From positions 1 through 64,000 of the forward strand of contig JADFDI010000007.1 in the NCBI GenBank assembly GCA_018262985.1: 64,000 nucleotides of DNA. Direction: 5' to 3'. This stretch comes from Spirochaetota bacterium (GTDB lineage Bacteria > Spirochaetota > Spirochaetia > Treponematales > UBA12059). A program made the translations under genes and the position numbers. Under the pieces are notes generated by a model that was not told the origin of the DNA, did not search any database, and saw only the letters and a program-made list of their open reading frames with translations. Shown one piece after another: positions 29,163 through 52,467 of the stretch. Each line of letters opens with the position of its first letter. The first letter of the stretch is position 1.

Positions 29163-29192
29163 TTGACGCGTCTCCACGGCGCGTGGTATCGT
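29163..29192 (+). promoter_or_regulatory. Predicted promoter of the PpiD-like gene
   Basis: TTGACG (29163-29168), 18-bp spacer, TATCGT (29187-29192), giving a conventional leader of about 112 bases to the ATG at 29312. It separates the foldase-Maf pair from the upstream operon. Confidence 0.5.
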
Positions 29193-29311
29193 GCGGAACC
29201 CGCGCCCGGGGCAGATCCTGCCGCCCCGTCGTGGTCGTACGCCACTTCCCCGAACGGCCGCGAGCCCCGGGGCGCCGCGACGGCCTCGCGCACCAATACG
29301 GGAAGGAACCT

Positions 29312-30853
29312 ATGGCATCCCTGAAAACCAAGAACCGAGCCGCCGAAACCGCGGCGCCCGCACGGCACACGACCCCGCTCGTCTACTACGGCACCATCGT
29401 CATCCTGGTGATCACCGTCATCGCCTTCGTGGTGGTCCCCTCCTTCTCCGGCACCGACGCCGGATCCGGGAAGCGGCTCGTGTTCGGTTCCTACGCCGGC
29501 AGGCCCATCGCCTACGAGAGCGGCAGCTACTTCGCCCGCCAGGTGCAGGCGGTCAACGCCGAAAAGCAGGAAACCGTCTCGCAGGACGAGGCCGGTTCCA
29601 TCAACTATATCTACGACGTGTGGATGACCGCGTTCCAGCGGACCGCCTACCGCTTCGCCCTCGTGGACGCGGCCGAGCGCGCCGGCGTGCTCGTGAGCGA
29701 CGACGCGGTCAACGCCAAGCTCATCGCCGACCCGAGCTTCCAGGTCGACGGACGCTTCTCGCGGGAACGCTTCGACAAGGTCAGCAAGTTCGACAAGAAC
29801 CGCATGCTCGAGAACCTCCGTGAGGACCTGCTCATCGAGCGCTACCTCGCCGACGCGCTCGGACTCGAAAGCAGCCCCGAGGAGCTCGCCCACGTCAAGC
29901 TGGCCGCCACCCCGCGCCGCGCCATCGAGTACGCCGCCGTCCCGCTCGACGACTACCCGGCCTCCGAGCGCGCCGCCTGGGCCGGACGGAACGCCTCCCT
30001 TTTCCGCACCGTCTCCGTATCCCGGATCACGATCCAGAGCTCGGAGAAGGACGCCGAGGCGCTCCGCGCCCGGATCGCCGACGGCAAGATCGCGTTCGAC
30101 GAGGCCGCCCGGACTTCGTCGACGGACCAGTACGCCGCCGCGGGCGGAATGGTGGGCGCGAAGGCCTTCCACGAACTGCGCTCCGACTTCGCCGACGAGG
30201 CGGACGCGGAAGCCGTGTTCGCCCTTCCCGAGGGCGGGCTGTCCGCGGTGCTCGAATCCAACCAGGATTCCTGGATCATCTACCGCGTGGACGAGGCCGC
30301 CGCCGCGGCCGACCTTTCCGACCCCGCCACGCTCGACGCTGTCGGCGCCTACATGAAGGCCTGGGAGAAGGGCGTGATCGAGGACTGGGCCGCTTCGCGG
30401 GCGGGCGCCTTCGCGGTCGCCGCCACCGAGGATGCCGCCGCGGCCACGGCCGAGTACGGCCTGTCCTTCAAGAGCGCCGAACCCTTCCCGCTCAACCTGG
30501 CCTCCGGCTTCTCCTCCTCCGGTTTCCCCTTGATCGGCGGGATCGACACCTACGGCTCCCCTGAGCTCGCGGGCGCCGACGCCGACCGCGCCTTCATGAA
30601 GGCCGTCTTCTCCCAGGAACCTGGCGCGATCTCCCGCGCGTTCGTCCTCGACACCCACGCGGTGGTCTTCCGCGTGACCGACTCGAGCGACGCCGACGCG
30701 GACAGCCTCTCGATCCTCGACTACTACCTGCCGTACTACGCGGGCAACCTGGAGCAGAACGCGGTCGCGGAGCTCCTGCTCGACGACGCCCGGTTCAAGA
30801 ACGATTTCGACGAGGTGTTCTTCCGCGTCTTCCTCGGCGAGTCCGGCTCGTGA
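29312..30853 (+). CDS. Membrane-anchored peptidyl-prolyl isomerase (SurA/PpiD-like)
   Basis: Envelope foldase of 513 aa. A cytosolic N-terminus (1-22), one transmembrane segment (about 24-45, VYYGTIVILVITVIAFVVV), a SurA-N-like chaperone region (about 50-215) and a parvulin/PPIC-like domain (about 225-335, containing AAAGGMVGAKAFHELRSDF and VFALPEGGLSAVLES) are visible. The last ~170 residues look like a second, degenerate parvulin region. RBS GGAAGGAA. It lies one base before the Maf-like gene and is presumably co-transcribed with it. Confidence 0.85.
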   Translation: MASLKTKNRAAETAAPARHTTPLVYYGTIVILVITVIAFVVVPSFSGTDAGSGKRLVFGSYAGRPIAYESGSYFARQVQAVNAEKQETVSQDEAGSINYIYDVWMTAFQRTAYRFALVDAAERAGVLVSDDAVNAKLIADPSFQVDGRFSRERFDKVSKFDKNRMLENLREDLLIERYLADALGLESSPEELAHVKLAATPRRAIEYAAVPLDDYPASERAAWAGRNASLFRTVSVSRITIQSSEKDAEALRARIADGKIAFDEAARTSSTDQYAAAGGMVGAKAFHELRSDFADEADAEAVFALPEGGLSAVLESNQDSWIIYRVDEAAAAADLSDPATLDAVGAYMKAWEKGVIEDWAASRAGAFAVAATEDAAAATAEYGLSFKSAEPFPLNLASGFSSSGFPLIGGIDTYGSPELAGADADRAFMKAVFSQEPGAISRAFVLDTHAVVFRVTDSSDADADSLSILDYYLPYYAGNLEQNAVAELLLDDARFKNDFDEVFFRVFLGESGS

Positions 30854-30854
30854 G

Positions 30855-32471
30855 GTGAGGTCCGGCGGCTCCGGCCCCGTCCTGACGGACGGCGGCCGGA
30901 CTCCCTCGGTGAAATGGCGGGGCGGCTTCCTCTACGCTCCCCGCGATCCAGACGCCGTCCCCCGGCGCATCGCCCTCGAAGCGCCGCTTCCCGCCTGCAC
31001 CCTTTTCGTCCTTCCCTCCCCCCTCCTCGGCTATGGTCTTCCCGAACTCCTCGAACGCTTGAGCGCGGACTCGGCCGTACTCCTCGTCGAGGCCGAGAGC
31101 GAGCTCGAGGCGCTGGCGCGGGAGCGCATCCCCCGCGAGCTGCTGTCCCACCCCCGCGTCCGCTTCGTCTCCGCGACGCCGGAGGCCGCCGTGCTCGCCG
31201 CGCGAAGCCTCGGCCGTTTCAGGAAGGCCGCGGAGCTCGTCCTCTCGCGCGGCCGCTCCCTCGCCGCGTCCGCCTACGACGCCGTGATGGCCGCGCTCGA
31301 CGCCGATTCCCAGACCTGGTGGCGAAACCGTGCCACCATGGCGCGCATGGGCCGGCTCTGGACGCGGAACCTGCTCGACAACCTGGGCAGGCTGCCATAC
31401 GACCGCCTCCGGCCTCTGCCGTCGGCCGCTCGGCCCATCCTCGTCGCGGGCGCCGGACCGAGCCTCGACCGCTCCGCGCCGTGGATACTCGCGCGACGGA
31501 AACGGCTCGCCGTCCTGGCGGTCGACACGGCCCTGCCCTGCCTGCGCTCGCGCGGCATCGAACCGGACGCGGTGGTCGTCCTCGAGGGCCAGGCGCACAA
31601 CCTGCGCGACTTCGCAGGGAGCTCGGGCAACGCGATCAGGCTCTTCGGCGACCTGTCGTCCCACCCCGCGGGCTTCCGCCATGTCGGCGGACCCGTTCAC
31701 GCCGTCCTGACCCGCTGGGAGGAGCTCGCCCTGTTGGACCGCGCCGGCGAGCTGCCTTTCATCGCCTCCCGCCTTCCTCCGCTCGGTTCGGTCGGAGTGT
31801 TCGCGGCGAGCCTCGCCTCGAGGCTCGGCCCTGTTCCCCTCATCCTCACTGGGCTCGACTTCGCCTTCTGGCCCGGACGCACGCACGCGGCCGGAGCGCC
31901 GGCGCTCAGGACCGAGGAAGCGCGGCAATCCCGCGTCCGCCGCAGGCCCGCCCAATGGTCGATCGCCTACGGCGGCCGGTCCCGCCCCAACACGCGGAAC
32001 GGGGAGCTATCCGACCCGCTGCTCGCCGCCTACGCGGCGACGCTCCAGCGCGAGCTGGCGCCGGTCTCGGGCCGCGTGCTGGACCTGCGCGGCGGCGGTC
32101 TCGAGCTCGGCCTCGCCCGGGCCGATTTCCGCGACGCGGACGAACTGCTCGAGGCGTTCGGTACCGAAAACGGATCGTCAGGCGCTTTCGAGGATCGCGG
32201 GTCCTATGACTACGCCGCGTCCCGTCGCCAGGCCGGGGCCTTCCTGGAAGCCGAGCTCGGGTTCGTACATGGGCTGCGCGCCTCGTTGAGGGACGGCCGG
32301 CCCGGTGTCGAAGCGGCCGTCGCCTCGTGCGACGGCTATTGGGCCCATTTCGCGGACTCGCACCGGGCGGAGGCGCTGCCGCAGGACTTCGGCAACCGCC
32401 TTCTCGTGGAGACCTTCTACTGGGAAGACCGCATCGAGCGGGCTCTCGCCTTCCTCGCCTCGACGCGCTGA
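30855..32471 (+). CDS. Maf/MptE-like DUF115 protein, putative flagellin glycosylation factor
   Basis: A 538-aa protein with a central DUF115 (6-hydroxymethylpterin-pyrophosphokinase MptE-like) domain. Its nucleotide-type motif VAGAGPSLDRSAPWI lies near residue 198, followed by AVLAVDTALPCLRSRGIEPDAVVVLE, and ILTGLDFAFWPGRTHA near 335. In Campylobacter, Aeromonas and others such Maf proteins transfer nonulosonic acids to flagellin; spirochaetes carry homologues. Start GTG at 30855 begins two bases after the upstream stop. With the sugar genes at 45917-52467 it suggests glycosylation of a filament protein. Confidence 0.82.
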   Translation: MRSGGSGPVLTDGGRTPSVKWRGGFLYAPRDPDAVPRRIALEAPLPACTLFVLPSPLLGYGLPELLERLSADSAVLLVEAESELEALARERIPRELLSHPRVRFVSATPEAAVLAARSLGRFRKAAELVLSRGRSLAASAYDAVMAALDADSQTWWRNRATMARMGRLWTRNLLDNLGRLPYDRLRPLPSAARPILVAGAGPSLDRSAPWILARRKRLAVLAVDTALPCLRSRGIEPDAVVVLEGQAHNLRDFAGSSGNAIRLFGDLSSHPAGFRHVGGPVHAVLTRWEELALLDRAGELPFIASRLPPLGSVGVFAASLASRLGPVPLILTGLDFAFWPGRTHAAGAPALRTEEARQSRVRRRPAQWSIAYGGRSRPNTRNGELSDPLLAAYAATLQRELAPVSGRVLDLRGGGLELGLARADFRDADELLEAFGTENGSSGAFEDRGSYDYAASRRQAGAFLEAELGFVHGLRASLRDGRPGVEAAVASCDGYWAHFADSHRAEALPQDFGNRLLVETFYWEDRIERALAFLASTR

Positions 32472-41753: not shown

Positions 41754-42998
41754 CTACGCGTGATCGGCAAGGCGATCCCGGAGCAGTTCCCCGAGGCGCC
41801 GGGAGTGATCGTCATCCGGGTTTATGGACTGCGCAGCCTCGCAGTCGGCCAGCGCGCGCGGATAGTCGGCGAGATGGAAATAGGCCTGGGCCCGGCGCAT
41901 GAGCGAGTAGAAATGGTAGGGATGGATGTCGAGCGCTCGGTCGAAGTCCTTGATCGCGTCGGAATACCGCGCCCGTATCGAATGGATGACGCCGCGGTAG
42001 TAGGCCGACTTGTAGCAGCGCGGATCGAGCTCGAGCGCCTTGGAAAAATCCTCGAGGCTCTCGTCGTAGCGCGACTCGGAGAAGAAGGCCATGGCGCGAT
42101 GCTTGAGTATGACCACCCGCGCCTCCTGCCTCGGATCGTGCGCGAGAATGCGGGAATACAGGTCGATGGCCCTCAGGTAGTCGCCCCGGTTGTGGGCCGC
42201 CAGGGCGGCCAGCAGCATGTCGTCGGAGCTGGCGTACTCGCGCAGGTAATCGAGGTCCGCCTTCGGCGCTACGGGCGTCGAGGGTCCCACGTCGGAGAAG
42301 AAGGGAAGATCGATGGCTTGCTCTATCTTGCGGTAGAAGGCGCCCCGGCGGCGGGCGAGCTCGTCCGACAGCTGGTGCTGGTAGTCGCGGATCTCCTGGA
42401 AGATGATGTCCGACAGGGTCAGGTTCGCGTTGAGGGCGGCCAGCTTGCGCCGCATCGGCTCGTCGAAGGGCGTGAACTCGGCCTTGTAAACGAGCTCGTG
42501 CTCCACCTCCGCCCAGGCTTCCTGAAGGATGGTCCGGATCTGGACCTCGACCACCTCCGATTGTAGCGAGGGCGCTTCCTCGCGGAGATCCTTCGGGATT
42601 TCTATGAGGAGGTGTATCGATTCGTAGCCGAATTCCCGGAAGGATCGTTCCGCTCCCTTTCGCTCCACTTCCACCACGCGAAAGGCGCGTCCGAGCTCCT
42701 CCTCGACCTTCGCGAGATCTCCGATGAAGGGACAGACGAAGCGGACGCCCAGCAGATCGGTCAGCGGGATAGGCGGCTTGCCCGTCGCGCGGGCCTGCTG
42801 GTACAGGCGTATGCGCTTCTTGAAATAGCTGGGAAAGGATTTGACCCTGGCCTTTACCCCGGGCCTGAGCCCCGAGTCCTCGAGCACCTTCCGCATCCTA
42901 GCCGCCATGGCCTGGACCACGGCTTCCCTGTCCGCGAGCGAGGAACGCCAGGATTCCTCGAGCTCGAGGCGGTTCAAGGCCGGTTCGGTCGTCTCCAT
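41754..42998 (-). CDS. (p)ppGpp synthetase (RelA/SpoT domain) fused to TPR repeats
   Basis: A 414-aa alarmone synthetase without an HD hydrolase, TGS or ACT domain. The synthetase domain (about 35-200) keeps VKSFPSYFKKRIR, LTDLLGVRFVCPF, GYESIHLLIEIP and the catalytic EVQIRTILQEAWAEVEHELVYK. A helical linker is followed by four or so TPR repeats (255-400; for example YDESLEDFSKALELDPRCYKSAYYRGVI). It resembles small alarmone synthetases but with a protein-interaction tail, so its activity is probably set by a binding partner. No Shine-Dalgarno; the promoter ends 8 bases before the ATG. Confidence 0.9.
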   Translation of the reverse strand: METTEPALNRLELEESWRSSLADREAVVQAMAARMRKVLEDSGLRPGVKARVKSFPSYFKKRIRLYQQARATGKPPIPLTDLLGVRFVCPFIGDLAKVEEELGRAFRVVEVERKGAERSFREFGYESIHLLIEIPKDLREEAPSLQSEVVEVQIRTILQEAWAEVEHELVYKAEFTPFDEPMRRKLAALNANLTLSDIIFQEIRDYQHQLSDELARRRGAFYRKIEQAIDLPFFSDVGPSTPVAPKADLDYLREYASSDDMLLAALAAHNRGDYLRAIDLYSRILAHDPRQEARVVILKHRAMAFFSESRYDESLEDFSKALELDPRCYKSAYYRGVIHSIRARYSDAIKDFDRALDIHPYHFYSLMRRAQAYFHLADYPRALADCEAAQSINPDDDHSRRLGELLRDRLADHA

Positions 42999-43166: not shown

Positions 43167-44204
43167 TTACTCGGTGTCCGAGGTGAACTCGGACTTCGGT
43201 TCCTGCTTCAGCTTCTCGAGGTACCTGAGGACCTGCGACTCGCCGAAGCGCCGGCTCTCGATGAGCTTGCGGTCGGCTTCGCGCTTGTCGTTGATGCCCC
43301 AGACGGCCTCGTCGTCGATGTCGCGCACCGGGTCGAGGACGGCCTTGTCGTAGAGGATCTTGACGTCCTTTACGTAGGTGACGAAATCTCCGCCTTCATG
43401 GGCCGCGTCGCGGGTGATGAGGATGCCGGCGAGCTTCACGAAGGGCGAGGACTTCGGATAGAGCGGGAAGAGGCGGAGCTCGCGGTTCCGGACGTCGGTG
43501 ACGTAGGCCGGGTTGTCCCAGCGGAGTTCCTTCCAGCCGTCGAAGTTCAGGTAGCCCATGAACATCGTCGTCTGCTTGCCTTCCTCGTCCTCGAGGACCA
43601 GGGATATTCCGTGGGGGAAGTTCATGCCGCGGACCGTGACGGCGAGCGACTTGATGACGCCGACGTTCTTCACGATGCCCATGGCGGTGGTGATCTTGGT
43701 GTCCGCGTTGTAGGTTCCCTCGAAGCGGGTCAGGCGGTCGTTGACCGGATCAGACCCGCCGCCTTCCTTGCGCTCGAAGGCGGGAATCGAGAACGGCGGG
43801 GTCACCATGGCCCAGCTGTTGTAGGTTTCGGTGGGGAAGTGGACCCGGATGCCCATGACCGTCTTGCCCGTGTAGGTCCCGCCGATGACGGGGGCTTCGC
43901 GGGTGTAGGAGAGGGCCTGGTTGAAGTTGGTCCGGGACGAGGAAGCGAGGGTGATGTCCCAGTTGCCGATGGCGAGGCTGGTGGCCATCTGCTTCTTCTG
44001 GTCCTCGGTGTAGCTGGCGCCGGCGGTGGTGGAGAAGTCCATCACGGTGGCGCCGTTGTCGAGGAACTGGCCGGGATTGAGGGGATCCTCGTTGGTGTCG
44101 GCCTTGAGGAGCGAGAAGTCCATCAGGACCGCCTCGTCCGCGAAAACCGAAAGCGTCCCGAGGAGCAACACGAGCGTTGCCGCTATGAAGACCTTCCTTG
44201 TCAT
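43167..44204 (-). CDS. flaA: Flagellar filament outer layer (sheath) protein FlaA
   Basis: Sheath protein of the spirochaete periplasmic flagellum. 345 aa with signal peptide MTRKVFIAATLVLLLGTLSV cleaved near FA-DEA. The mature part matches FlaA in layout: WDITLASSSRTNF, MGIRVHFPTETYNSWAMVTP, VKSLAVTVRGMNFPHGIS and the HEGGDFVTYVKDVKILYDKA segment near 275. The start at 44204 is fixed by GAAAGGAG upstream and the signal peptide; an upstream ATG at 44291 is inside the promoter region. It has its own consensus promoter and terminator, so it is expressed separately from the glycan/amidase genes just upstream. Confidence 0.95.
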   Translation of the reverse strand: MTRKVFIAATLVLLLGTLSVFADEAVLMDFSLLKADTNEDPLNPGQFLDNGATVMDFSTTAGASYTEDQKKQMATSLAIGNWDITLASSSRTNFNQALSYTREAPVIGGTYTGKTVMGIRVHFPTETYNSWAMVTPPFSIPAFERKEGGGSDPVNDRLTRFEGTYNADTKITTAMGIVKNVGVIKSLAVTVRGMNFPHGISLVLEDEEGKQTTMFMGYLNFDGWKELRWDNPAYVTDVRNRELRLFPLYPKSSPFVKLAGILITRDAAHEGGDFVTYVKDVKILYDKAVLDPVRDIDDEAVWGINDKREADRKLIESRRFGESQVLRYLEKLKQEPKSEFTSDTE

Positions 44205-44253
44205 ACTCTGAACTCCTTTCTGTAAGGCGGTCGATGAGCCGAATTCGGCTCCA

Positions 44254-44281
44254 ATTATATTCGGGCGAATAACCTTGTCAA
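44254..44281 (-). promoter_or_regulatory. Consensus sigma70-type promoter of flaA
   Basis: Minus strand: TTGACA (44281-44276), 16-bp spacer, TATAAT (44259-44254), both boxes perfect. It starts six bases after the GerMN-gene stop. This is a housekeeping-type rather than a sigma28-type flagellar promoter. Confidence 0.9.
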
Positions 44282-44287
44282 ATATTT

Positions 44288-44791
44288 TCATTTTTTTTGC
44301 TCGTCCCCGCCGCCGAACGGCACGCGGCCGCCGATGGTGATGGAAATGCCCTTCAGTCCGGGCGCGGCGAGGGCGAGCACGTCGCGCGCGGCCTCGAGGG
44401 CGACGCGGAGCGGCGCTCCGCCCTCTCCCAGGGCTCCCTCGCCCAGGTCCGCCCAGAGGACGCCGTCCCTGAGCAAGACGGCGCCGACCTTGGTGCCCGG
44501 CGCGAAGAGCGGCGCGAGGTCCGGATCGGACGGACCGAGCAACAGTTCCGCGAGGGTCTCCGCCGCTTCCGCCTCGGCCTTGCGCGAAGGCAGGGCCCGG
44601 AGCTCCCCGACCAGGCGGCCGTCGGTGGCGCGAGGAAAGAGCAGGACGACGGGACGTCGCGCCCCGCCGGCCGCCCAGGATCCGAGGGCGAGCGCGAGGA
44701 GGAGGGCGAGCAGGAGCGTACGGTGAACTCGCGCGCGCCCGAGGGCGGCCACGGGGGCGGAAGCAAGGATGCGGTCGAGGAAATCCTTCAT
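44288..44791 (-). CDS. Membrane-anchored GerMN-domain protein
   Basis: A 167-aa protein: cytosolic N-terminus, one hydrophobic segment (about 24-42), then a GerMN domain (50-160; RRPVVLLFPRATDGRLVGEL, AETLAELLLGPSDPDLAPLF, PLRVALEAARDVLALAAPGL). GerMN domains occur in extracytoplasmic proteins linked to cell-wall processes. Its start overlaps the amidase stop (ATGA), so amidase and GerMN protein are made together and probably act together on peptidoglycan. Confidence 0.85.
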   Translation of the reverse strand: MKDFLDRILASAPVAALGRARVHRTLLLALLLALALGSWAAGGARRPVVLLFPRATDGRLVGELRALPSRKAEAEAAETLAELLLGPSDPDLAPLFAPGTKVGAVLLRDGVLWADLGEGALGEGGAPLRVALEAARDVLALAAPGLKGISITIGGRVPFGGGDEQKK

Positions 44792-45912
44792 GGCGTTGCG
44801 GGTCCCTTGCGGCTTTCGAAGTAGCCTATGAAATCGACGATGCCATTATAGACGGCGTCCGAGATGCGGCGCAAGTGAGCCGGATCGGCGAGCAGGCGGG
44901 CTTCCGCCTCGTTCGTCACGAAGCCCATCTCCACGAGCACGCTCGGCATGCGCGCGTTGCGGACGACGAACCACTCCTCGGCGCGGACGCCGCGGTTCCG
45001 CGAGACCGACCCGATCGAGGCGTCGAGCCGGCCGACGATGGACCGCGCGAGGAGGACGCTCTCGGTCGTGTACTCCTCCTCCATCATTACGTTGACGATG
45101 GGCGCGATCTCCTCGTCCACCCCCGGAGTGCCCGAATCCACGAGGGTGCGGCGGTAGTCCGGGTTCAGGTACCAGACCTCGAAGCCGGAGGCGTTGCGGT
45201 TGAAGGACGCGTTGGCGTGGATCGAGACGTAGATGATGGCCTCGTTGGGGCCGAGCGTGACGGTGTTGGCCATTTCCACGCGATCTTCCAGGCTCGGATA
45301 GGTGTCGCCTTCCCGCGAGAGCAGGATGCGCCGGTCGGGGAAACGCGCGCGGAGCGAGTCGCGCACGGCGAGCGCCGTGGAGAGGGCGAGGTCCTTCTCG
45401 AGCACCTTCTTCCTGTCCTTGCCCGCGCCGTACTCCCCTACGGCGCCGGGATCCTTGCCGCCGTGGCCCGGGTCGATCAGGACCGCCGCGACGCGGAAGC
45501 GCGACAGCCTTTCGGCGCGACGCTCCTCGAACCAGGCGGAGAGGTAGGCCGCGGTGCTCCCTTCGATGACGGGCCCCGCGGGGCCGGTCCGACCGGGAGC
45601 GAGCCGGACGGGCCGCTCGCCGAGCAGGTGCCACGGGGAACCGGGCTTGAAGGCCACGCGGTCGCCAGAGCTGACGATGGTGACGGTTCCCAGAAGCGGA
45701 TCGATGGACAGGACGGCTCCGATCGACGCGGCGAAATCCGCCACGGAAACGGCGGCGGGAAGCTCCGCGCCGGCGGAGGCCGGAACCTGGGCGGAAGCGG
45801 GGCGCGGTTCCGTCAAGGCCGCCGCGAGCGCCAGGCCGAGGGCGAACGCCGCGAGGGGTCTTCCCCGCCGTCCGGGCGCGCTTGCCGGTCCACTGTTTCC
45901 GGGGAGGCTCAT
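44788..45912 (-). CDS. N-acetylmuramoyl-L-alanine amidase (Amidase_3)
   Basis: Zinc amidase cleaving the peptide stem from peptidoglycan. 374 aa: signal peptide (about 20-42, after an Arg-containing start), a small N-terminal domain (50-130), and Amidase_3 (140-365). Metal and catalytic motifs: VLIDPGHGGKDPGAVG (His), EKDLAL (Glu), IIYVSIHANAS (His), and SVLVEMGFVTNEAEARLLAD (catalytic Glu). The start lies 4 bp after the ATP-grasp gene's stop. It bridges the glycan genes and flaA; periplasmic flagella must fit through or along the wall, which may explain the grouping. Confidence 0.93.
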   Translation of the reverse strand: MSLPGNSGPASAPGRRGRPLAAFALGLALAAALTEPRPASAQVPASAGAELPAAVSVADFAASIGAVLSIDPLLGTVTIVSSGDRVAFKPGSPWHLLGERPVRLAPGRTGPAGPVIEGSTAAYLSAWFEERRAERLSRFRVAAVLIDPGHGGKDPGAVGEYGAGKDRKKVLEKDLALSTALAVRDSLRARFPDRRILLSREGDTYPSLEDRVEMANTVTLGPNEAIIYVSIHANASFNRNASGFEVWYLNPDYRRTLVDSGTPGVDEEIAPIVNVMMEEEYTTESVLLARSIVGRLDASIGSVSRNRGVRAEEWFVVRNARMPSVLVEMGFVTNEAEARLLADPAHLRRISDAVYNGIVDFIGYFESRKGPATP

Positions 45913-45916
45913 CGCT

Positions 45917-47503
45917 TCATCCTGCCCTGAGCGCGCGTTCCGTGTCCACGACGTAGAGGGCGGCCTGCCAACCGCCGCGCTCGAGGGCCTTCCAGAAGCG
46001 TCCGGCGAGCGCCGCCTCGCCGGGGCGCGCCGCCCGGACGCCGGAGAGCCGCTCCACCAGGTCCAGCGACTCCTCGAGCGTCCTTCCAAGCCAGTCGCGC
46101 GAAGCGAGGGTCTCCGGCGAAAGCTCCAGGCGCAGGTAGGGAGTGGGAGCGCCTCGGCCGGGTTCGGAGCCCGGAACATCCTCCGGCAAGAGCGCGAGCG
46201 CTTCACGGAACTCCTCGGGAGCCTCTCCGAAGGCGCGCGGCGGCCATGCCCTGCCGTCCGGCAGGATGAGCCCGCCCCCTCCGGCGAGAAAGTCCTCGGT
46301 GGCCGCGTTCTCGGGCTCGAGGATCGGAAGCAGCGAGCGCGCGGCGCGTTCCGCGGCGGCGACGGCCGAGGCGCGGTCCGGCGCCTGCGAGATGACGTTG
46401 CCGCCTTTTTCCACGTTGTTCGAAGGAAACACCGCCCGGAATCCCGGAGCGAGGCGGAGGAAGACGTCCTTGACGTAGGGGTCGAGGCGAGCCTCGCGTT
46501 CCCCGAGGAGGCGGGAGACCGTCCCCGGTATCGAGATGAAGGCGCGTTCCGCCGAAACCCAGTCGCGCCGCGGCGCCAGGTCGCCCGGCGGCAGCCCGAC
46601 GGCCACGCGGAGGGCGGCCAGGGTCGGATCGACGCCCGAGGCGTAGGGATAGGTCCAGCCGGACATGTAGCCGCCGGAGAGCCTCGCCGCTATCTCGCCG
46701 ACCACCGCCCCGCGCTTACCGAGCTTGATGTCGCCCTTGGCCGCGCCGGGACCGAGGCCGAGCGCCCGGACTCCCAGCTCGAAGACGCGGACCACCTCGG
46801 CGATGGCGTCCGGAGGGTAGGCGCTCGGCATGGTGTGGCCCAGCTCGACGAAGAACGGCGCGAAGGCGATGTGGCGGTCGGCGACGCCGCAAAGCTCGAC
46901 GCGGTCGCCGTGAACTATGGCGTCGAGCGAGAACTCGGGACCCTCGACGTACTCCTCCACGATGGCGCGGCCCGAGCGGGACGAGCGCAGCGCCTCGGCG
47001 ATGGCCGGGCCGTACTCGCGCGCCGCCGTCACGAGCCTGCAGCCCCGCGCCCCCATGTTGTCCACCGGCTTGACGACCAAGGGGAATCCGACGCGCTCGG
47101 CGGCGAGGGTCGGATCCTCGTCGCTCCCCACCGTGACGAAGCGGGGCGAGGGTACGCCGGCCGCCTCGAAGCGCGCGCGCATGCGGCCCTTGTGGCTCGC
47201 GTCGAGCGCCACCTCGTACGGAATGCCGGGCAGGCCGAGGCGGGCGGCGACCCAGGCCACGTTGGCCGAGAAATCGGTGCCGGCGGTGAAAACCCCGTCG
47301 AGCCCCCCCGATTCGCGCAGCCTCCGGGCCGCGGACTCGAGGGCGTCGCGGTCCTTGAGGTCGACGTGCAGGAACTCGTCGACGAGGGCCGCGCCGGGAG
47401 CCGAGGCGTCGGCGTCGGCCGCGGCGACGCGCCAGCCCTGATCGCGGGCGATGCGGATGGCCGGCAGTTGCATCACGCCGGCGCCGAGTATCATGACGCG
47501 CAT
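45917..47503 (-). CDS. ATP-grasp family ligase
   Basis: A 528-aa carboxylate-amine/thiol ligase-type enzyme. A Rossmann-like preATP-grasp domain opens it (MRVMILGAGVMQLPAIRIAR), followed by the ATP-grasp core (VGFPLVVKPVDNMGARGCRLV near 135; AIVEEYVEGPEFSLDAIVHG near 175; KGDIKLGKRGAVVGEIAARLSGGYMSG near 245 with the metal-binding Glu). The last ~200 residues are an added domain of unknown role. Such enzymes in sugar clusters attach amino acids or acids to sugars. TGATG overlap with the upstream gene. Confidence 0.88.
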   Translation of the reverse strand: MRVMILGAGVMQLPAIRIARDQGWRVAAADADASAPGAALVDEFLHVDLKDRDALESAARRLRESGGLDGVFTAGTDFSANVAWVAARLGLPGIPYEVALDASHKGRMRARFEAAGVPSPRFVTVGSDEDPTLAAERVGFPLVVKPVDNMGARGCRLVTAAREYGPAIAEALRSSRSGRAIVEEYVEGPEFSLDAIVHGDRVELCGVADRHIAFAPFFVELGHTMPSAYPPDAIAEVVRVFELGVRALGLGPGAAKGDIKLGKRGAVVGEIAARLSGGYMSGWTYPYASGVDPTLAALRVAVGLPPGDLAPRRDWVSAERAFISIPGTVSRLLGEREARLDPYVKDVFLRLAPGFRAVFPSNNVEKGGNVISQAPDRASAVAAAERAARSLLPILEPENAATEDFLAGGGGLILPDGRAWPPRAFGEAPEEFREALALLPEDVPGSEPGRGAPTPYLRLELSPETLASRDWLGRTLEESLDLVERLSGVRAARPGEAALAGRFWKALERGGWQAALYVVDTERALRAG

Positions 47504-49293
47504 CAGGATGCCCTTCCTTTCGGCGCGAGGCGCCGGGCGTAGATCTCGAATGTGTCGCCGAGGCGGAAGGCCCGGCTCGCCGCGGCGCGAAGCGAGCGGA
47601 GCCAGGCCGGATCCCCTTCCCGCGAGCCGGGGAAGCGCTCGGGATGGTGGCCGGTGGATCGGACAAGCTCGACGCGGAAGCCGAAGCGCGCGAGGAGGCG
47701 CGCGGCGCGCGCCGGTTCCCAGACGCTCAGGTGGTCGTAGGGGCTCGCCGCCAGGAAGGCGCGACGGTCCTTGCGGGCGCTGATGCCGGAGCCGGAGGGC
47801 GTGGACAGGGCCAGGACGCCCCCGGGCGCGAGCAGGCGGGCCGCGCGTTCGAGCGTGGCCCCGAGCTCCGCGAAGTGCTCGACGACGTACCACAGCGAAA
47901 GGCAATCGAGGCCGTCGGGCACGAGGTCGTCGAGTCGGGGATCCTGGAAGTCGGCGGCCATCGCGGGAAGGCGCAAGGAGTCGCGGACGTAGGCGACCGC
48001 GTCGTCGGCGAGGTCGAGCCCGTAGGCTTCCCAGCCGCGCCGTGAGGCCTCCGCCATGAAGGCGCCGTAGGCGCAACCGACGTCGAGGAGCTTCCGCCCC
48101 TTCCCCTCCCGAGCCGGAACGAGGCGGTCCACGAGGTCTAGGCGAGAGGCCGCGAGCTCGGTCAGTTTCGGCCAGTCCTCCAGGTAGGTGCGGCCGTACT
48201 GGGCGCGGTACTCCTCGAAAAAGTAGCTTTTGGCGTAGCGTCCAGGCTTGTCGGCGTATCCTTCCATATACAGGAGGCCGCAGTTCCGGCAACGGAAGTA
48301 GCTTCGGTCGGGGTAGCGCTCGACGTCCGCGCGCCTGCCCGACCTGCAGGCCGGGCAGACGCCCTCGGCCTTCGAAGAAAGGGAAGCGATGGCGGCGGCC
48401 AGGCTTTCCCGCGCGGCGGGGGCGGGGCGGGCGGAAGCCTTCGCGAAGCTTGTCAGGTCCGCGAGCAGGGCCGTGAGCGCCTTCGCGTCGGGTTCGCGGA
48501 CGCCGATGGAGGGGAAGCCCGCCTCGCGGGAGAGCGCGGCGTGATAGGGGCCCGGATCCAGCAGGGCCACGAGGCAGCCTGCCCAGGACGCCTCGTAGGC
48601 GGTGAGTCCGAACGAGGTGAACACGAGGTCCCAGGAGGACAGGTGTTCCTTGAGGTTCTGCACCGGGCCGAGCACGGCGATGCCCTGCGGAATCGAGTCG
48701 CGCGAGGCGCCGGGGCGGCTCAGGGCGCCGGACACGAGGGTCAGGCGCGAGGGTTCGAAGAAGCCCTTCTCCACGAGGAAGCGGGCGAGCTTCGGGCCGA
48801 GGCCGGCCGGATCCTCTCCGCCGAACGCGAGGAGGGCCTTGCGCGCGATGGTCGCCGTTTCGCGACGGTGGACGGGCAGGTCGAGGTAGCCGCGGGACGA
48901 GAGGTTCGGTCCGGGTTCGGAACGTCGGGCGCGGGGGCGCGGCAGGGCGTCGACGAGGTAGGACGCCGCCCGGCGCGCCGCGCCCCCCTCGTCGAGGGCG
49001 ACGACGGGACCGCGCCCGTGCCACGAGCCGAGCTCCTCGAGCGAGGTTTCGCGCCGGTCGAGCAATACGAGGTCGAAGCGCTCGCGGGGATCCAGCCGAT
49101 CGACCACGATGTCGTCGGCGGCCCCCGGAAAGGCGAGCGTGATCTCGGCTGGGCTCCAGGAAGCCTCTCCGCCTTCGCGGGATACGAAGACCCGGGCGCC
49201 CGGTCCGAGCTCCCGGGCCAGCGAGAGGCAGCGGACCAGGTGCCCCGAACCGTTGCCCCGCCGGACCGAAGGAACGAGCAGGATGCGCTTCAT
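47503..49293 (-). CDS. PseG/SpsG-like glycosyl hydrolase-transferase fused to SAM methyltransferase
   Basis: A 596-aa fusion. Residues 1-300 follow the PseG/SpsG (GT-B fold) pattern: RRGNGSGHLVRCLSLARELG at the start, LLALDEGG-like VVALDEGGAARRAA near 95, ALLAFGGEDPAGLGPKLARF near 152, and FTSFGLTAYEASWAGCLVAL near 225. A zinc-ribbon (CPAC near 312, CRNC near 333) links to a class I methyltransferase (365-500; KLLDVGCAYGAFMAEASRRGWE, LSLWYVVEHFAELGATLERA). PseG removes UDP from an altrose precursor in pseudaminic acid synthesis; here the substrate is unknown. Confidence 0.87.
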   Translation of the reverse strand: MKRILLVPSVRRGNGSGHLVRCLSLARELGPGARVFVSREGGEASWSPAEITLAFPGAADDIVVDRLDPRERFDLVLLDRRETSLEELGSWHGRGPVVALDEGGAARRAASYLVDALPRPRARRSEPGPNLSSRGYLDLPVHRRETATIARKALLAFGGEDPAGLGPKLARFLVEKGFFEPSRLTLVSGALSRPGASRDSIPQGIAVLGPVQNLKEHLSSWDLVFTSFGLTAYEASWAGCLVALLDPGPYHAALSREAGFPSIGVREPDAKALTALLADLTSFAKASARPAPAARESLAAAIASLSSKAEGVCPACRSGRRADVERYPDRSYFRCRNCGLLYMEGYADKPGRYAKSYFFEEYRAQYGRTYLEDWPKLTELAASRLDLVDRLVPAREGKGRKLLDVGCAYGAFMAEASRRGWEAYGLDLADDAVAYVRDSLRLPAMAADFQDPRLDDLVPDGLDCLSLWYVVEHFAELGATLERAARLLAPGGVLALSTPSGSGISARKDRRAFLAASPYDHLSVWEPARAARLLARFGFRVELVRSTGHHPERFPGSREGDPAWLRSLRAAASRAFRLGDTFEIYARRLAPKGRAS

Positions 49294-49296
49294 GCC

Positions 49297-50001
49297 CTAC
49301 TCCGCCGTCCAGGGCTGGACGAGGGACCAATCGCCCGAGTCCAAGGCCCTGAGGGTCGCCACCAGGAGGCGCGCGGAAGGGTCGAAACCCGCCTCCCGCG
49401 CCAGTTCGAGGACTCGTTCGTAGTCTCCGGCAGTGTCGACGGTGACTCGGCCCGACGCGTAGAGGCACTCGGGCGGAGCCTGTTCGCGGAGCACGCGGAA
49501 ACGCTCCGGCCTCCTGTAGAGGAAGGGACAGACGTGCTCGCGCTCGAACGGGTCGGTCGCCTCGGCGTCGGCCGCGAGCAGGGCGGAAGCTCGCACGGCC
49601 TCCACCCCGAGGCCGAGCGGCATGCCCGTCAACCCGGCGTAATCGACGTCGGCTTCGACGGCGCGGTCCGAGACGATCGAGGCCAGCTCCGGCGAAACGA
49701 AGGGATTGTCGGCGGTGGCGCGGACGACGCGGTCGAGCGAGAATTTCCTGATGGCCAGCGCGAAGCGCGCCAGCACGTCCTCCTTCGGCCCCGCGACGAG
49801 CTCGAAGCCGGCGCGGGCGGCGAGGGGCGCGAAGCTCGCGGCGGAGGCCTCGTCGCAGGCGAGGACGCGCGCCGCGGCCTGTACCCGCGCGAGCCGCCGC
49901 ATGCAGGCTTCGACCATCGGGATGCCGCCGAAGGGAAGCAGGGCCTTCCGCGGCAGGCGGCTCGAGTCGAGGCGGGCCTGGAGCACGATGCCTATCCTCA
50001 C
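49297..50001 (-). CDS. SpsF-like cytidylyltransferase (CMP-sugar synthetase family)
   Basis: A 234-aa nucleotidyltransferase of the SpsF/NeuA-like group: IGIVLQARLDSSRLPRKALLPFGG at the start (the Q-A-R-x-x-S-x-R-L-P-x-K loop binds CTP), VVRATADNPFVSPELAS near 98 (R-x-x-x-D-N/C-P), and VDYAGLTGMPLGLGVEAVR near 125. It activates an acidic sugar with CTP. The GTG start at 50001 overlaps the glycosyltransferase stop (GTGA), and the next gene begins 3 bp after its stop. Confidence 0.88.
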   Translation of the reverse strand: MRIGIVLQARLDSSRLPRKALLPFGGIPMVEACMRRLARVQAAARVLACDEASAASFAPLAARAGFELVAGPKEDVLARFALAIRKFSLDRVVRATADNPFVSPELASIVSDRAVEADVDYAGLTGMPLGLGVEAVRASALLAADAEATDPFEREHVCPFLYRRPERFRVLREQAPPECLYASGRVTVDTAGDYERVLELAREAGFDPSARLLVATLRALDSGDWSLVQPWTAE

Positions 50002-50957
50002 GAAAGAGGCTCCCAGAGGTCGACGAGGGCGCGGGCGTCCATGCGGAAGCGGAAGGCGTTGGCGGCTACCCACGCGCGGGCCGCCCTGAATTCGGAAAGC
50101 GCTTCCGACAGGTCCGCGCCGCCGCGGAGGGCGAAACGCGGGAAGCGGGACCAGGGAAGATGCGCCGAGTCGCCGCGATGGACGGGCGCGAGGCAGCGAA
50201 GGTGGAAGCGCCGGTAATCGCCGCCCGGGCTCGAGTCGTAGGAGGGGGGCGCCTCCGCGTAATCGACGCGGAGCGCCTGGGCCGATCCGAGCGTCTCGCC
50301 CCGGAGCCAGCACCGGAACCCGAACTCGACGAGCTGCCACCAAGGCGAACGGAAGGAAGGATCGAAGCCGCCGGAGGCGAGGAAGCGCTCCCTGGAGTAG
50401 ACGCCGGCGTAGTCGAGCGGAAAGAGGACCTTCTCGCCGTCCTCGCGGGGTTCGAGGCTCAGCACCCTGAGCCCGGAACCTTCCAGCGCGGGCGCGCTCG
50501 CGGAGGGCAGGACCTCGCCGCCCGGCCCCCGGAACCAGGGCGTCGCGCAGAGCCAGGAGCGCTCCTCCAGCCGTTCGGCGAAGCGCGAGGACAGCGCTCC
50601 GGCGGCCAGGCGCTGGTCGTTCCAGAGCAGCAGCACCCAGGGCGAGCGCGACTCGCGGAAACCGATGCCGGCGCGTTCGCCGGGCGAGAGCCCCGGAGGC
50701 ACCACGGCGAAGCGCGTCGAGGGGAAGCGGGACGCGAGGGCTTCCAGCTCGTGGCGCCCCTCGCCCGACTCCTCGATCGACACCACTTCCGCGAACCCCG
50801 CCCGTTCGAGATCCTGGAGCTGGCGCGCGCGATACAGCCGGCCGCCCCGGTTGAGCACGACCACCGAGACGCGCGAGGATGAGGCCGGCCTCGCCCCGCC
50901 TCCCAGGACCGTGTAGGCGGTCTCCCGCGGCTCAGGCGTTCCAGGTGTGGTATTCAT
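49998..50957 (-). CDS. GT2-like glycosyltransferase
   Basis: A 319-aa glycosyltransferase of GT-A type. It opens with RVSVVVLNRGGRLYRARQLQ near residue 30, has SPWVLLLWNDQRLAAGALS (NDD-like nucleotide/metal loop reading ND) near 106, and GVYSRERFLASGGFDPSFRS near 188. The acceptor and donor are unknown. The ATG at 50957 lies inside the spiro-SPASM 3' end (26-bp overlap) with no ribosome site, so its translation depends on the upstream gene. Confidence 0.75.
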   Translation of the reverse strand: MNTTPGTPEPRETAYTVLGGGARPASSSRVSVVVLNRGGRLYRARQLQDLERAGFAEVVSIEESGEGRHELEALASRFPSTRFAVVPPGLSPGERAGIGFRESRSPWVLLLWNDQRLAAGALSSRFAERLEERSWLCATPWFRGPGGEVLPSASAPALEGSGLRVLSLEPREDGEKVLFPLDYAGVYSRERFLASGGFDPSFRSPWWQLVEFGFRCWLRGETLGSAQALRVDYAEAPPSYDSSPGGDYRRFHLRCLAPVHRGDSAHLPWSRFPRFALRGGADLSEALSEFRAARAWVAANAFRFRMDARALVDLWEPLS

Positions 50958-52467
50958 CGCAGCGCTCGCAGATGGCGGGAAGTTTCCGGTGGACGTGGTC
51001 GAGCCAGGCGGCCTCGCCCTTCGCCCAGATCGATTCTAGGGAGTCGACGAACACGTTGCCGAGCGGCGCCGATTCCGGGTGGATCCCCGGGGCGAGCGCT
51101 TCCCGGCACATGAGGACGGCGCCGTCGAGGGCGACGACGAGGTCGCGGGCCAAGTGGCGGCAGGGCAGGCGCTCGAGCGGCGACAGGTCGGAGACCGTCA
51201 GGTTCGGCAGGCGGCCCGCGAAGCCGTCGTACTTCTGGACTATGACGTCGAGCCCCTTCTCCTTCCAGCCGCGCCAGAACGCCTCGAGTCGGCGCTCGTT
51301 CGAGAGCATCCGGACCGCCTGGACGTGCGCGCGTCCGGGGAAGAGGGAGCCCAGCTTTTCGGCGAAGGCGACCGCCTCGTCGAAGCCCGGTCCGCGTAGG
51401 TTTTGGTACTCGCCGCGTTCCGTTTCGTCGAGGGAGACTATCCAGTCGACGCGGCCCGAGGCGGCCCAGCGCTCCGCGACGCCTTCGGCCACGCCGGCCT
51501 TCCAGCCGACGCCCGAGGTTTCCACAATGAGCGACAGGCCGGGCCGCGAAAGGACGGAGTCCGCGAGAGCGCCGAAATCGGGGTGAAGCGAGGGTTCGCC
51601 CCAGAGCGAGAGGTCCACCACCGCGTCGCCCGAGAAGGTCGCGACCCTCCCCATCAAGTCGTCGAAGCGGCCGGCTTCCATGAAATCGCGCCGCGCGAGC
51701 ACGTCGCCGCCGAATCCCGGGTAGGGGCAGTACGCGCAAGCCTGCGGGCAGCCCCCCGCGACCTGCACGTGGATGAAGGCGGGGCGGTTGCGGAGGACTT
51801 CCTCGTGGGCGGGCAAGAGGTCCTGGACGGACTCGGCCGTCACCGTCCCGCCCGCCGCCCCGGCGAGCCGCTCCGACGCCTCGAAGTCGCGGCGCGTGTC
51901 GCAGACCGCCCGGAAGCGCCAGGGCCGGAGGTCGACGCGCGAGATCTCGGTTTCGACGTCGAACGAGTTGATGTCCTTCTGAACGGTCAGGAAGAGCGCG
52001 TCGCGCGAGAAGGGCAGCTTCTCGCGGGCCGCGATGGCGGAAAGGGGACCGAGTATGCGCGGCTTGACGAATTCCGCCGCGAAGCCCTCCGGCCAGCCGT
52101 CGGCGAACAGGAACTCAGCCTTCCAGCGCTCGAACGAGGCGGCCATGGAAGCGGCGAAAGTCCCGTCGAGGAAGGGTTGGTCGCCGAAGGCGTGCACCAG
52201 CAGGCCCGGGGCCCCGGGAGCCTTCGGATCGCCCGCGATGGCGCCGAGCGCCTCGATCAGGCCCGGCGCGTCCCAGGAAGCGCGGCGGACGAGTTCGTAG
52301 TCGCCCGGAGGCGGCTCGAGGCCGGCCGCGAGCACGACGACGCGCTCGAGGCCGGGCAGGGAACGCAAGGCCGCGAGCGAGCGCTCGAACGCGGAGGGGC
52401 CTCCGGCGAAGGGCTCGAAGGCCAGGCCCGTGGCGGGCACGAGGTCGAGAACGGCGACTGTCTTCAT
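50932..52467 (-). CDS. Spiro-SPASM protein: nucleotidyltransferase-like domain plus radical SAM/SPASM
   Basis: A 511-aa protein of the spirochaete-restricted spiro-SPASM family. Residues 1-215 resemble a degenerate nucleotidyltransferase (MKTVAVLDLVPATGLAFEPF, LLVHAFGDQPFLDGT). The radical SAM core begins near 238 with CPQACAYC (CxxxCxxC, the [4Fe-4S]-SAM site). The C-terminal SPASM region holds further cysteines (LPCRHLARD near 440, MCREA near 455, CERCDEYH near 500). The substrate is unknown. It heads the minus-strand operon that leads to flaA. Ribosome site AAGGAGC. Confidence 0.9.
   Translation of the reverse strand: MKTVAVLDLVPATGLAFEPFAGGPSAFERSLAALRSLPGLERVVVLAAGLEPPPGDYELVRRASWDAPGLIEALGAIAGDPKAPGAPGLLVHAFGDQPFLDGTFAASMAASFERWKAEFLFADGWPEGFAAEFVKPRILGPLSAIAAREKLPFSRDALFLTVQKDINSFDVETEISRVDLRPWRFRAVCDTRRDFEASERLAGAAGGTVTAESVQDLLPAHEEVLRNRPAFIHVQVAGGCPQACAYCPYPGFGGDVLARRDFMEAGRFDDLMGRVATFSGDAVVDLSLWGEPSLHPDFGALADSVLSRPGLSLIVETSGVGWKAGVAEGVAERWAASGRVDWIVSLDETERGEYQNLRGPGFDEAVAFAEKLGSLFPGRAHVQAVRMLSNERRLEAFWRGWKEKGLDVIVQKYDGFAGRLPNLTVSDLSPLERLPCRHLARDLVVALDGAVLMCREALAPGIHPESAPLGNVFVDSLESIWAKGEAAWLDHVHRKLPAICERCDEYHTWNA

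Follow-up and report, generated by a model that had tools for sequence, protein, structure and literature searches.

A conserved spirochaete gene block next to flaA and its likely role in nonulosonic-type glycosylation of the flagellin FlaB

We analysed a stretch of 64,000 nucleotides from contig JADFDI010000007.1 of a Spirochaetota bacterium, hereafter the window (the genome is called G000). In it, seven minus-strand genes run from a spiro-SPASM gene to a GerMN gene, and the next gene is flaA, which encodes the flagellar filament outer (sheath) protein. As the first-pass annotation had described, the seven genes are tightly packed, with overlaps of 26, 4, 1 or 4 bp or gaps of 3–4 bp, and their order recurs in relatives. 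The reading that we consider likely is that genes one to five form the dedicated portion of a pathway found across the phylum, which puts a cytidine monophosphate (CMP)-activated, N-acyl-modified nonulosonic acid, of the pseudaminic or legionaminic type, on the flagellin FlaB by means of Maf proteins.

The five genes, all on the minus strand, are as follows. The spiro-SPASM protein (50932..52467; 511 amino acid residues) matches TIGR04321 with 459.2 bits, over the curated cut-off of 250. Its structural model (pLDDT 92) has a cytidylyltransferase-like N-terminal domain followed by a radical S-adenosylmethionine (SAM)/SPASM body, with PDB matches to CMP-KDO synthetase/6oew and to SuiB, BtrN and DesII. 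The radical-SAM CxxxCxxC motif is intact in the window protein (C240-x3-C244-x2-C247), and the C-terminal SPASM cysteines are C436, C454, C500 and C503. The second gene (49998..50957; 319 residues) overlaps the first by 26 bp. Its product had been labelled a family 2 glycosyltransferase, or GT2; it has no glycosyltransferase match in Pfam or NCBIfam, and in most of 94 homologues WND replaces DxD. What stands of the label is the predicted GT-A fold (model pLDDT 88), for which the nearest solved structures are polypeptide GalNAc-transferases (Foldseek E 1e-12). The Q, D/E and R of a YWQxxDFGFR motif are invariant in the 94 homologues. The third gene (49297..50001), with a GTG start and a 4-bp overlap with the GT-A gene, encodes an SpsF-like CMP-sugar cytidylyltransferase, recognised by CTP_transf_3/PF02348 (95.8 bits), an intact ARLDSSRLPRK motif and a structural relative in the Leptospira cytidylyltransferase 6oew (1.7e-19).

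A 3-bp gap separates SpsF from the fourth gene, a PseG-methyltransferase fusion (47503..49293). The N-terminal half (48379..49293) is a PseG/SpsG-like uridine diphosphate (UDP)-sugar hydrolase domain that scores 24 bits with TIGR03590, far under the cut-off of 153.55; its GxGHxxR motif is invariant in 12 of 12 aligned sequences. The PseG profile found no PseG match in the PDB, only a weak UDP-glycosyltransferase one, and phmmer with the whole fused protein returned methyltransferases only. The C-terminal half (47503..48378) is a SAM-dependent methyltransferase domain (Methyltransf_23/PF13489, 72.7 bits, 3.7e-20) with zinc-ribbon-like CxxC pairs. The fifth gene (45917..47503; 528 residues), which overlaps the fusion gene by 1 bp, encodes an ATP-grasp carboxylate-amine ligase with a C-terminal domain of the L-amino-acid-ligase type (LAL_C2/PF18603, 43.2 bits; ATP-grasp_4/PF13535, 41.3 bits; both over cut-off). 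The nearest solved proteins, the L-amino acid ligase 3vot (7e-40) and BacD, are carboxylate-amine couplers.

The block continues on the same strand with an N-acetylmuramoyl-L-alanine amidase gene (44788..45912; Amidase_3/PF01520, 159 bits), 4 bp from the ATP-grasp gene, and a gene for a GerMN (Germane) domain protein (44288..44791; PF10646, 23.6 bits, marginally above the cut-off of 23), which overlaps the amidase gene by 4 bp. The flaA gene (43167..44204, minus strand; PF04620, 243 bits) lies 83 bp past GerMN, with a strong Shine-Dalgarno-like GAAAGGAGTT ahead of its ATG at 44204. A sigma-70 promoter consensus for flaA, TTGACA-16-TATAAT, is matched at 12 of 12 positions at 44254..44281 (minus strand), at the end of the GerMN gene; promoter-like sites in the 10-kb region number 3 against 0.2 expected, and a search for sigma-28 promoters stayed at the chance level, with 13 found and 11.7 expected. 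With so perfect a promoter of its own, flaA may do without that of the operon. Thus, of the operon ending at flaA that had been described, the block and the neighbour order hold, with flaA's own promoter as a refinement. Such a perfect consensus is rare in this GC-rich region. A gene for a RelA/SpoT-domain protein with tetratricopeptide repeats (41754-42998, minus strand) lies just downstream of flaA.

Other genes of the proposed pathway lie outside the block. The first-pass annotation had pointed to a Maf-like protein at 30855 as the kind of enzyme that moves such sugars onto flagellin. This MptE-like (Maf core) protein (30855..32471, plus strand; PF01973, 84.8 bits), for which no solved relative was found by sequence, is a candidate nonulosonic acid transferase to flagellin. 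Its gene is on the opposite strand, 12–20 kb from the block, and is one of four PF01973 matches in G000. A gene for a SurA-like peptidyl-prolyl isomerase (29183-30853, plus strand) lies 1 bp upstream of it. Most flagellated spirochaete genomes, the Borrelia-like family described below aside, have three or four Maf/MptE-like paralogues.

The complete acidic-sugar pathway is indeed missing from the window, as had been noted, but PseB-, PseC- and NeuB-like genes are present elsewhere in G000. Genes for a PseB/SpsM-like dehydratase (171.5 bits; cut-off 407.75) and a PseC/SpsC-like aminotransferase (332 bits; cut-off 423.5), both under the equivalog cut-offs, are adjacent at G000:C21:4201-6388. About 10 kb from this pair is the single NeuB-family synthase gene (G000:C21:16243-16926; PF03102, 1.3e-56), in a context of ruvCAB-queA and mutS2. 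The synthase is of the NeuB/PseI type, intermediate between the NeuB and PseI models and under both cut-offs, and its nearest solved relative is SpsE of Bacillus subtilis (1vli; 1e-48). At L118:9139-10251, a lone NeuB/SpsE-type synthase gene is found between yebC-ruvCAB-queA and mutS2, away from the other pathway genes. No PseH/SpsD-type N-acetyltransferase is encoded in the block; the genome was not searched for PseH.

Co-conservation of these genes with flaA across spirochaetes had been suggested as a check, and two neighbourhood surveys bear it out. In the first, of 40 genomes with about 20 kb each, the full order spiro-SPASM, GT-A, SpsF, PseG-methyltransferase, ATP-grasp, amidase, GerMN and FlaA is found in families f1, f3, f4, f7, f9, f10 and part of f2, where SpsF, PseG and methyltransferase are a single fused protein; f6 has the same order minus the amidase. 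In other classes the spiro-SPASM-SpsF-PseG core triad recurs, and in f12, f14 and f24 the methyltransferase, amidase, GerMN and FlaA still adjoin it, as they do without GerMN in f26. The second survey covered 80 named loci collected with the ATP-grasp profile, mostly from Treponema and other Spirochaetales metagenome-assembled genomes. Of the 80, 52 show the nine-domain order in full, as do 41 of the 45 loci with room on both sides; all 45 have the ATP-grasp-amidase-GerMN-FlaA segment. The conserved nine-domain order is not a matter of chance. An apparent loss of the ATP-grasp gene in two Treponema-like genomes (L034 and L035) proved wrong, the gene being located elsewhere in both.

For a phyletic profile, every family was searched for in one set of 168 Spirochaetota genomes, all of 90% completeness or more. 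Spiro-SPASM E-values were judged row by row; a tally at E ≤ 0.001 alone is unsafe because other radical-SAM proteins match as well: control genomes give such matches, and G000 has a second one at an E-value of 4e-6. Spiro-SPASM is found in 155 of the 168 genomes (147 over the cut-off, the rest at E ≤ 4e-44, the weakest 3e-44). Maf (PF01973) is present in the identical 155 and missing from the identical 13. The ATP-grasp ligase occurs in 154 of the 155 spiro-SPASM genomes (152 at E ≤ 1e-80) and the PseG profile matches in 145, and neither is found in any of the 13 others; NeuB is strong (E ≤ 1e-47) in 153 of the 155. The 13 comprise four genomes of two families, G120, G162, G163 and G164, which are the only ones among the 168 without flagellin, and nine genomes of a single family, f5, which have flagellin, sizes of 1.0–1.8 Mb and no NeuB; we take f5, from its genome sizes and FlaB sequence, to be Borrelia-like. 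That is, spiro-SPASM occurs in 155 of 164 flagellated genomes, the nine exceptions all being Borrelia-like, and the four flagellin-less genomes have no spiro-SPASM, ATP-grasp, PseG or Maf. Conservation of the set in spirochaetes lacking flagella, named beforehand as the pattern that would speak against a flagellar role, is not seen in these four. Gene content, co-occurrence and the flagellin-less genomes together support the earlier suggestion that the sugar is an activated one of the nonulosonic type and destined for the flagellum.

The same profile bears on the alternative that the nonulosonic acid is made for lipopolysaccharide (LPS), capsule or another envelope glycan, the flagellar link being one of neighbourhood only. 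Members of the SpsF, PseG and NeuB families also work in the making of LPS and of spore or S-layer glycans, as in the sps genes of B. subtilis (PMC7439481), and two envelope genes, for the amidase and GerMN, are inside the block. However, none of the four flagellin-less genomes has the set even though two of them (G162 and G164) carry PseB/PseC-like genes, it co-occurs exactly with Maf, and it is retained in a Treponema pallidum-like genome. T. pallidum itself is known to lack LPS. An envelope destination is, in our judgement, very unlikely.

The glycosites known in spirochaetes sit on FlaB (PMC9481697, PMC7431986, PMC13144727). In Treponema denticola they fall in the motifs VEVSQL and DRIAS, which Treponema and Leptospira are reported to share and which are replaced in Borrelia burgdorferi (PMC7431986), the flagellin of which is unglycosylated according to Sterba 2008 as cited in PMC2832021. 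Ser115 is a site of glycan-like density in Leptospira biflexa (PMC13144727), and the printed alignment places the serine of VEVSQL at residue 115 of the closest solved flagellin. PseI (TDE0960) is required for flagellin production in T. denticola (PMC9862357). We compared 32 flagellins from outside f5 with nine from f5, taken as the best-scoring ones and not as a random draw. Ser115 (VEVSQL) is serine or threonine in 81% of the 32 versus glutamate in nine of nine f5 proteins, and Ser126 (DRIAS) is serine or threonine in 94% versus aspartate in nine of nine. The FlaB of G000 keeps both motifs and both serines.

These comparisons make FlaB, rather than FlaA, the likely acceptor. The first-pass annotation had looked to the periplasmic flagellum or the envelope because of flaA, and the position of flaA as the syntenic neighbour in many families would speak for FlaA or another sheath or periplasmic protein as the acceptor. 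Yet the published glycosites are on FlaB, the glycosite serines of FlaB vary with the pathway, and flaA has a promoter of its own. Moreover, the N-terminus of FlaA is a signal-peptide-like stretch, so FlaA probably leaves the cytoplasm by a route other than flagellin's, crossing the membrane unfolded. We regard an acceptor other than FlaB as most improbable.

The nature of the ligase bears on the acyl group. In several families (f12, f14, f15, f19, f23–f27 and f33) the ATP-grasp domain lies within an open frame of 724–809 residues that also holds an FMN_dh domain, a flavin mononucleotide (FMN)-dependent oxidoreductase; in f26 the FMN_dh-bearing frame was not matched to ATP-grasp. An f34 protein (L057, 16979-19249) likewise has ATP-grasp and FMN_dh (PF01070, 5.9e-66), and the T. 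pallidum-like genome has a stand-alone FMN_dh two genes beyond its SpsF-PseG-methyltransferase fusion. To judge from the fusion of the ligase to an alpha-hydroxy-acid oxidoreductase, a hydroxy or keto acid would serve as the acid partner. As a universal step FMN_dh is weakened, being absent from G000 and several Spirochaetia families. Most of the fusion copies checked (L057, L147, L148 and L157) have a CxxCxGxxCxxxxPGMG motif, and the Brachyspira-like copy, L157, has apparently lost the catalytic histidine of SNHGGR.

From its family and relatives, the ATP-grasp enzyme probably forms an N-acyl amide. The FlaB glycan of T. denticola is reportedly a mono-acetylated nonulosonic acid with a 2-methoxy-4,5,6-trihydroxyhexanoyl group at N7. 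Mono-acetylated pseudaminic acid with this acyl group computes to 450.185 Da, matching the 450.2 Da of the glycan (PMC9481697). The acyl group would correspond to a reduced, O-methylated 2-keto-3-deoxygluconate, for which an oxidoreductase, a methyltransferase and a ligase would be needed. The sugar had been called possibly undescribed; this holds for the present organism, although the described T. denticola glycan is probably a very similar sugar. Alternatively, within the same flagellin pathway, the ligase could attach some other group, for instance an amino acid, to the protein or to the carboxylate of the sugar. L-amino-acid-ligase-type ATP-grasp enzymes do couple amino acids, and most Spirochaetia families, G000 included, have no fused FMN_dh, whereas the fusion with an FMN alpha-hydroxy-acid dehydrogenase indicates a hydroxy or keto acid partner and the known glycan mass fits one N-acyl hydroxy acid. 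We consider this alternative rather unlikely.

In the spiro-SPASM family, the nucleoside triphosphate-binding motif R..S.R.P.K is absent in 124 of 124 open reading frames, some of which come from the same genome. The radical-SAM CxxxCxxC motif is kept in 24 of 63 genomes and lost in 39, a mosaic even inside f2, and since these genomes (L003-L072) were drawn by score and family the split is not a phylum frequency. The four SPASM cysteines are kept in all 63. Spiro-SPASM is thus a case of repeated pseudo-enzyme formation, and the radical-SAM step that had been counted in the conserved chemistry falls away. Rather than radical chemistry, the SPASM metal site and the scaffold probably carry the retained function; the window protein, with its intact motif, may add a lineage-specific modification. 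Radical-SAM deoxygenation as a conserved source of a 3-deoxy acyl group was rejected, since CxxxCxxC is missing from the T. denticola-like and T. pallidum-like proteins. No paper in the literature searched names the TIGR04321 family.

It is tempting to propose, as a tentative and still quite possible extension, that the genes define a distinct nonulosonic branch. Here the ATP-grasp enzyme, fused to an FMN oxidoreductase in most of the phylum outside Spirochaetia, would attach a sugar-acid acyl group to the amino sugar in place of PseH action, and a repeatedly pseudo-radical-SAM spiro-SPASM would assist through nothing but its SPASM metal site and its dead nucleotidyltransferase domain. We know of no nonulosonic pathway in which N-acylation by an ATP-grasp enzyme has been described.

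In the pathway that we infer from the genomics, the PseB/SpsM-like dehydratase and the PseC/SpsC-like aminotransferase would yield a UDP-4-amino-6-deoxy-N-acetylhexosamine. The ATP-grasp ligase would then spend adenosine triphosphate on joining this amine to a carboxylic acid, for which a sugar acid, for instance a 3-deoxy-hexonate, is probable, replacing the acetyltransferase PseH/SpsD, and the fused methyltransferase would O-methylate the acyl part. PseG would strip UDP, the lone NeuB/SpsE-like synthase would add phosphoenolpyruvate, and SpsF would make the CMP-sugar, which Maf (MptE-like) proteins would move to serine or threonine of FlaB before export. The remaining two, the GT-A protein and spiro-SPASM (whose nucleotidyltransferase has decayed, as has its radical-SAM site in many cases), would probably be assembly, substrate-handling or tailoring subunits.

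Several points weigh against this pathway. The PseB, PseC and PseG relatives are all under equivalog cut-offs, and there are several Maf copies per genome. G000 itself has no FMN_dh domain, so its acyl group may differ, and the mass comparison depends on the N7-acyl structure reported for T. denticola. The losses go back to few independent events, namely one in the Borrelia-like lineage and one or two losses of the flagellum; Borrelia-like genomes are generally reduced, and f5 FlaB is divergent at other serine and threonine sites too, which leaves the glycosite changes correlative. The pattern of loss is informative because an equally reduced genome, the T. pallidum-like G041 of 1.14 Mb, retains all five families: spiro-SPASM, ATP-grasp, PseG, Maf and NeuB.

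T. denticola is reported to require FlaB glycosylation both to assemble its filaments and to be motile, and a core-sheath link has been proposed for this glycosylation in Leptospira. Little of the biosynthesis of the FlaB glycan has been assigned to genes, and the present analysis offers a short, phylum-wide list: ATP-grasp, PseG-methyltransferase, SpsF, spiro-SPASM, Maf and NeuB. Gene loss would give a reason for the bare flagellin of Borrelia, and the unexplained spiro-SPASM family gains a testable role.

Among known systems, the legionaminic acid pathway of B. subtilis, SpsM-C-D-G-E-F (PMC7439481), is alike in its enzyme classes: a dehydratase, an aminotransferase and a PseG/SpsG-type hydrolase (candidates here, under the equivalog cut-offs), an SpsE-type synthase and SpsF. 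It differs in serving the spore crust rather than a flagellum and in using the acetyltransferase SpsD where an ATP-grasp enzyme is found here, and no spiro-SPASM or Maf is described in sps. In flagellin glycosylation of the Campylobacter/Helicobacter type, a cytoplasmic CMP-nonulosonic acid (pseudaminic or legionaminic) is moved to serine or threonine of flagellin by Maf-type proteins. The system proposed here would share the CMP-nonulosonic acid and the Maf-type transfer; unlike that type, its PseB, PseC and PseG relatives are below equivalog cut-offs, its genes are scattered, an ATP-grasp enzyme, a methyltransferase and spiro-SPASM are added, and the filament is periplasmic. The 450.2-Da FlaB glycan of T. 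denticola (Kurniyati 2017, as cited in PMC9481697 and PMC9862357) is the probable product class: PseI is needed there, and the ligase, methyltransferase, hydrolase and CMP transferase classes found here match its reported structure. In the text available, pseI (TDE0960) is the only gene found linked to that glycan. Finally, the window protein is a member of the spiro-SPASM family TIGR04321, to which the present analysis adds a probable tie to flagellin glycosylation and the repeated loss of the radical-SAM motif.

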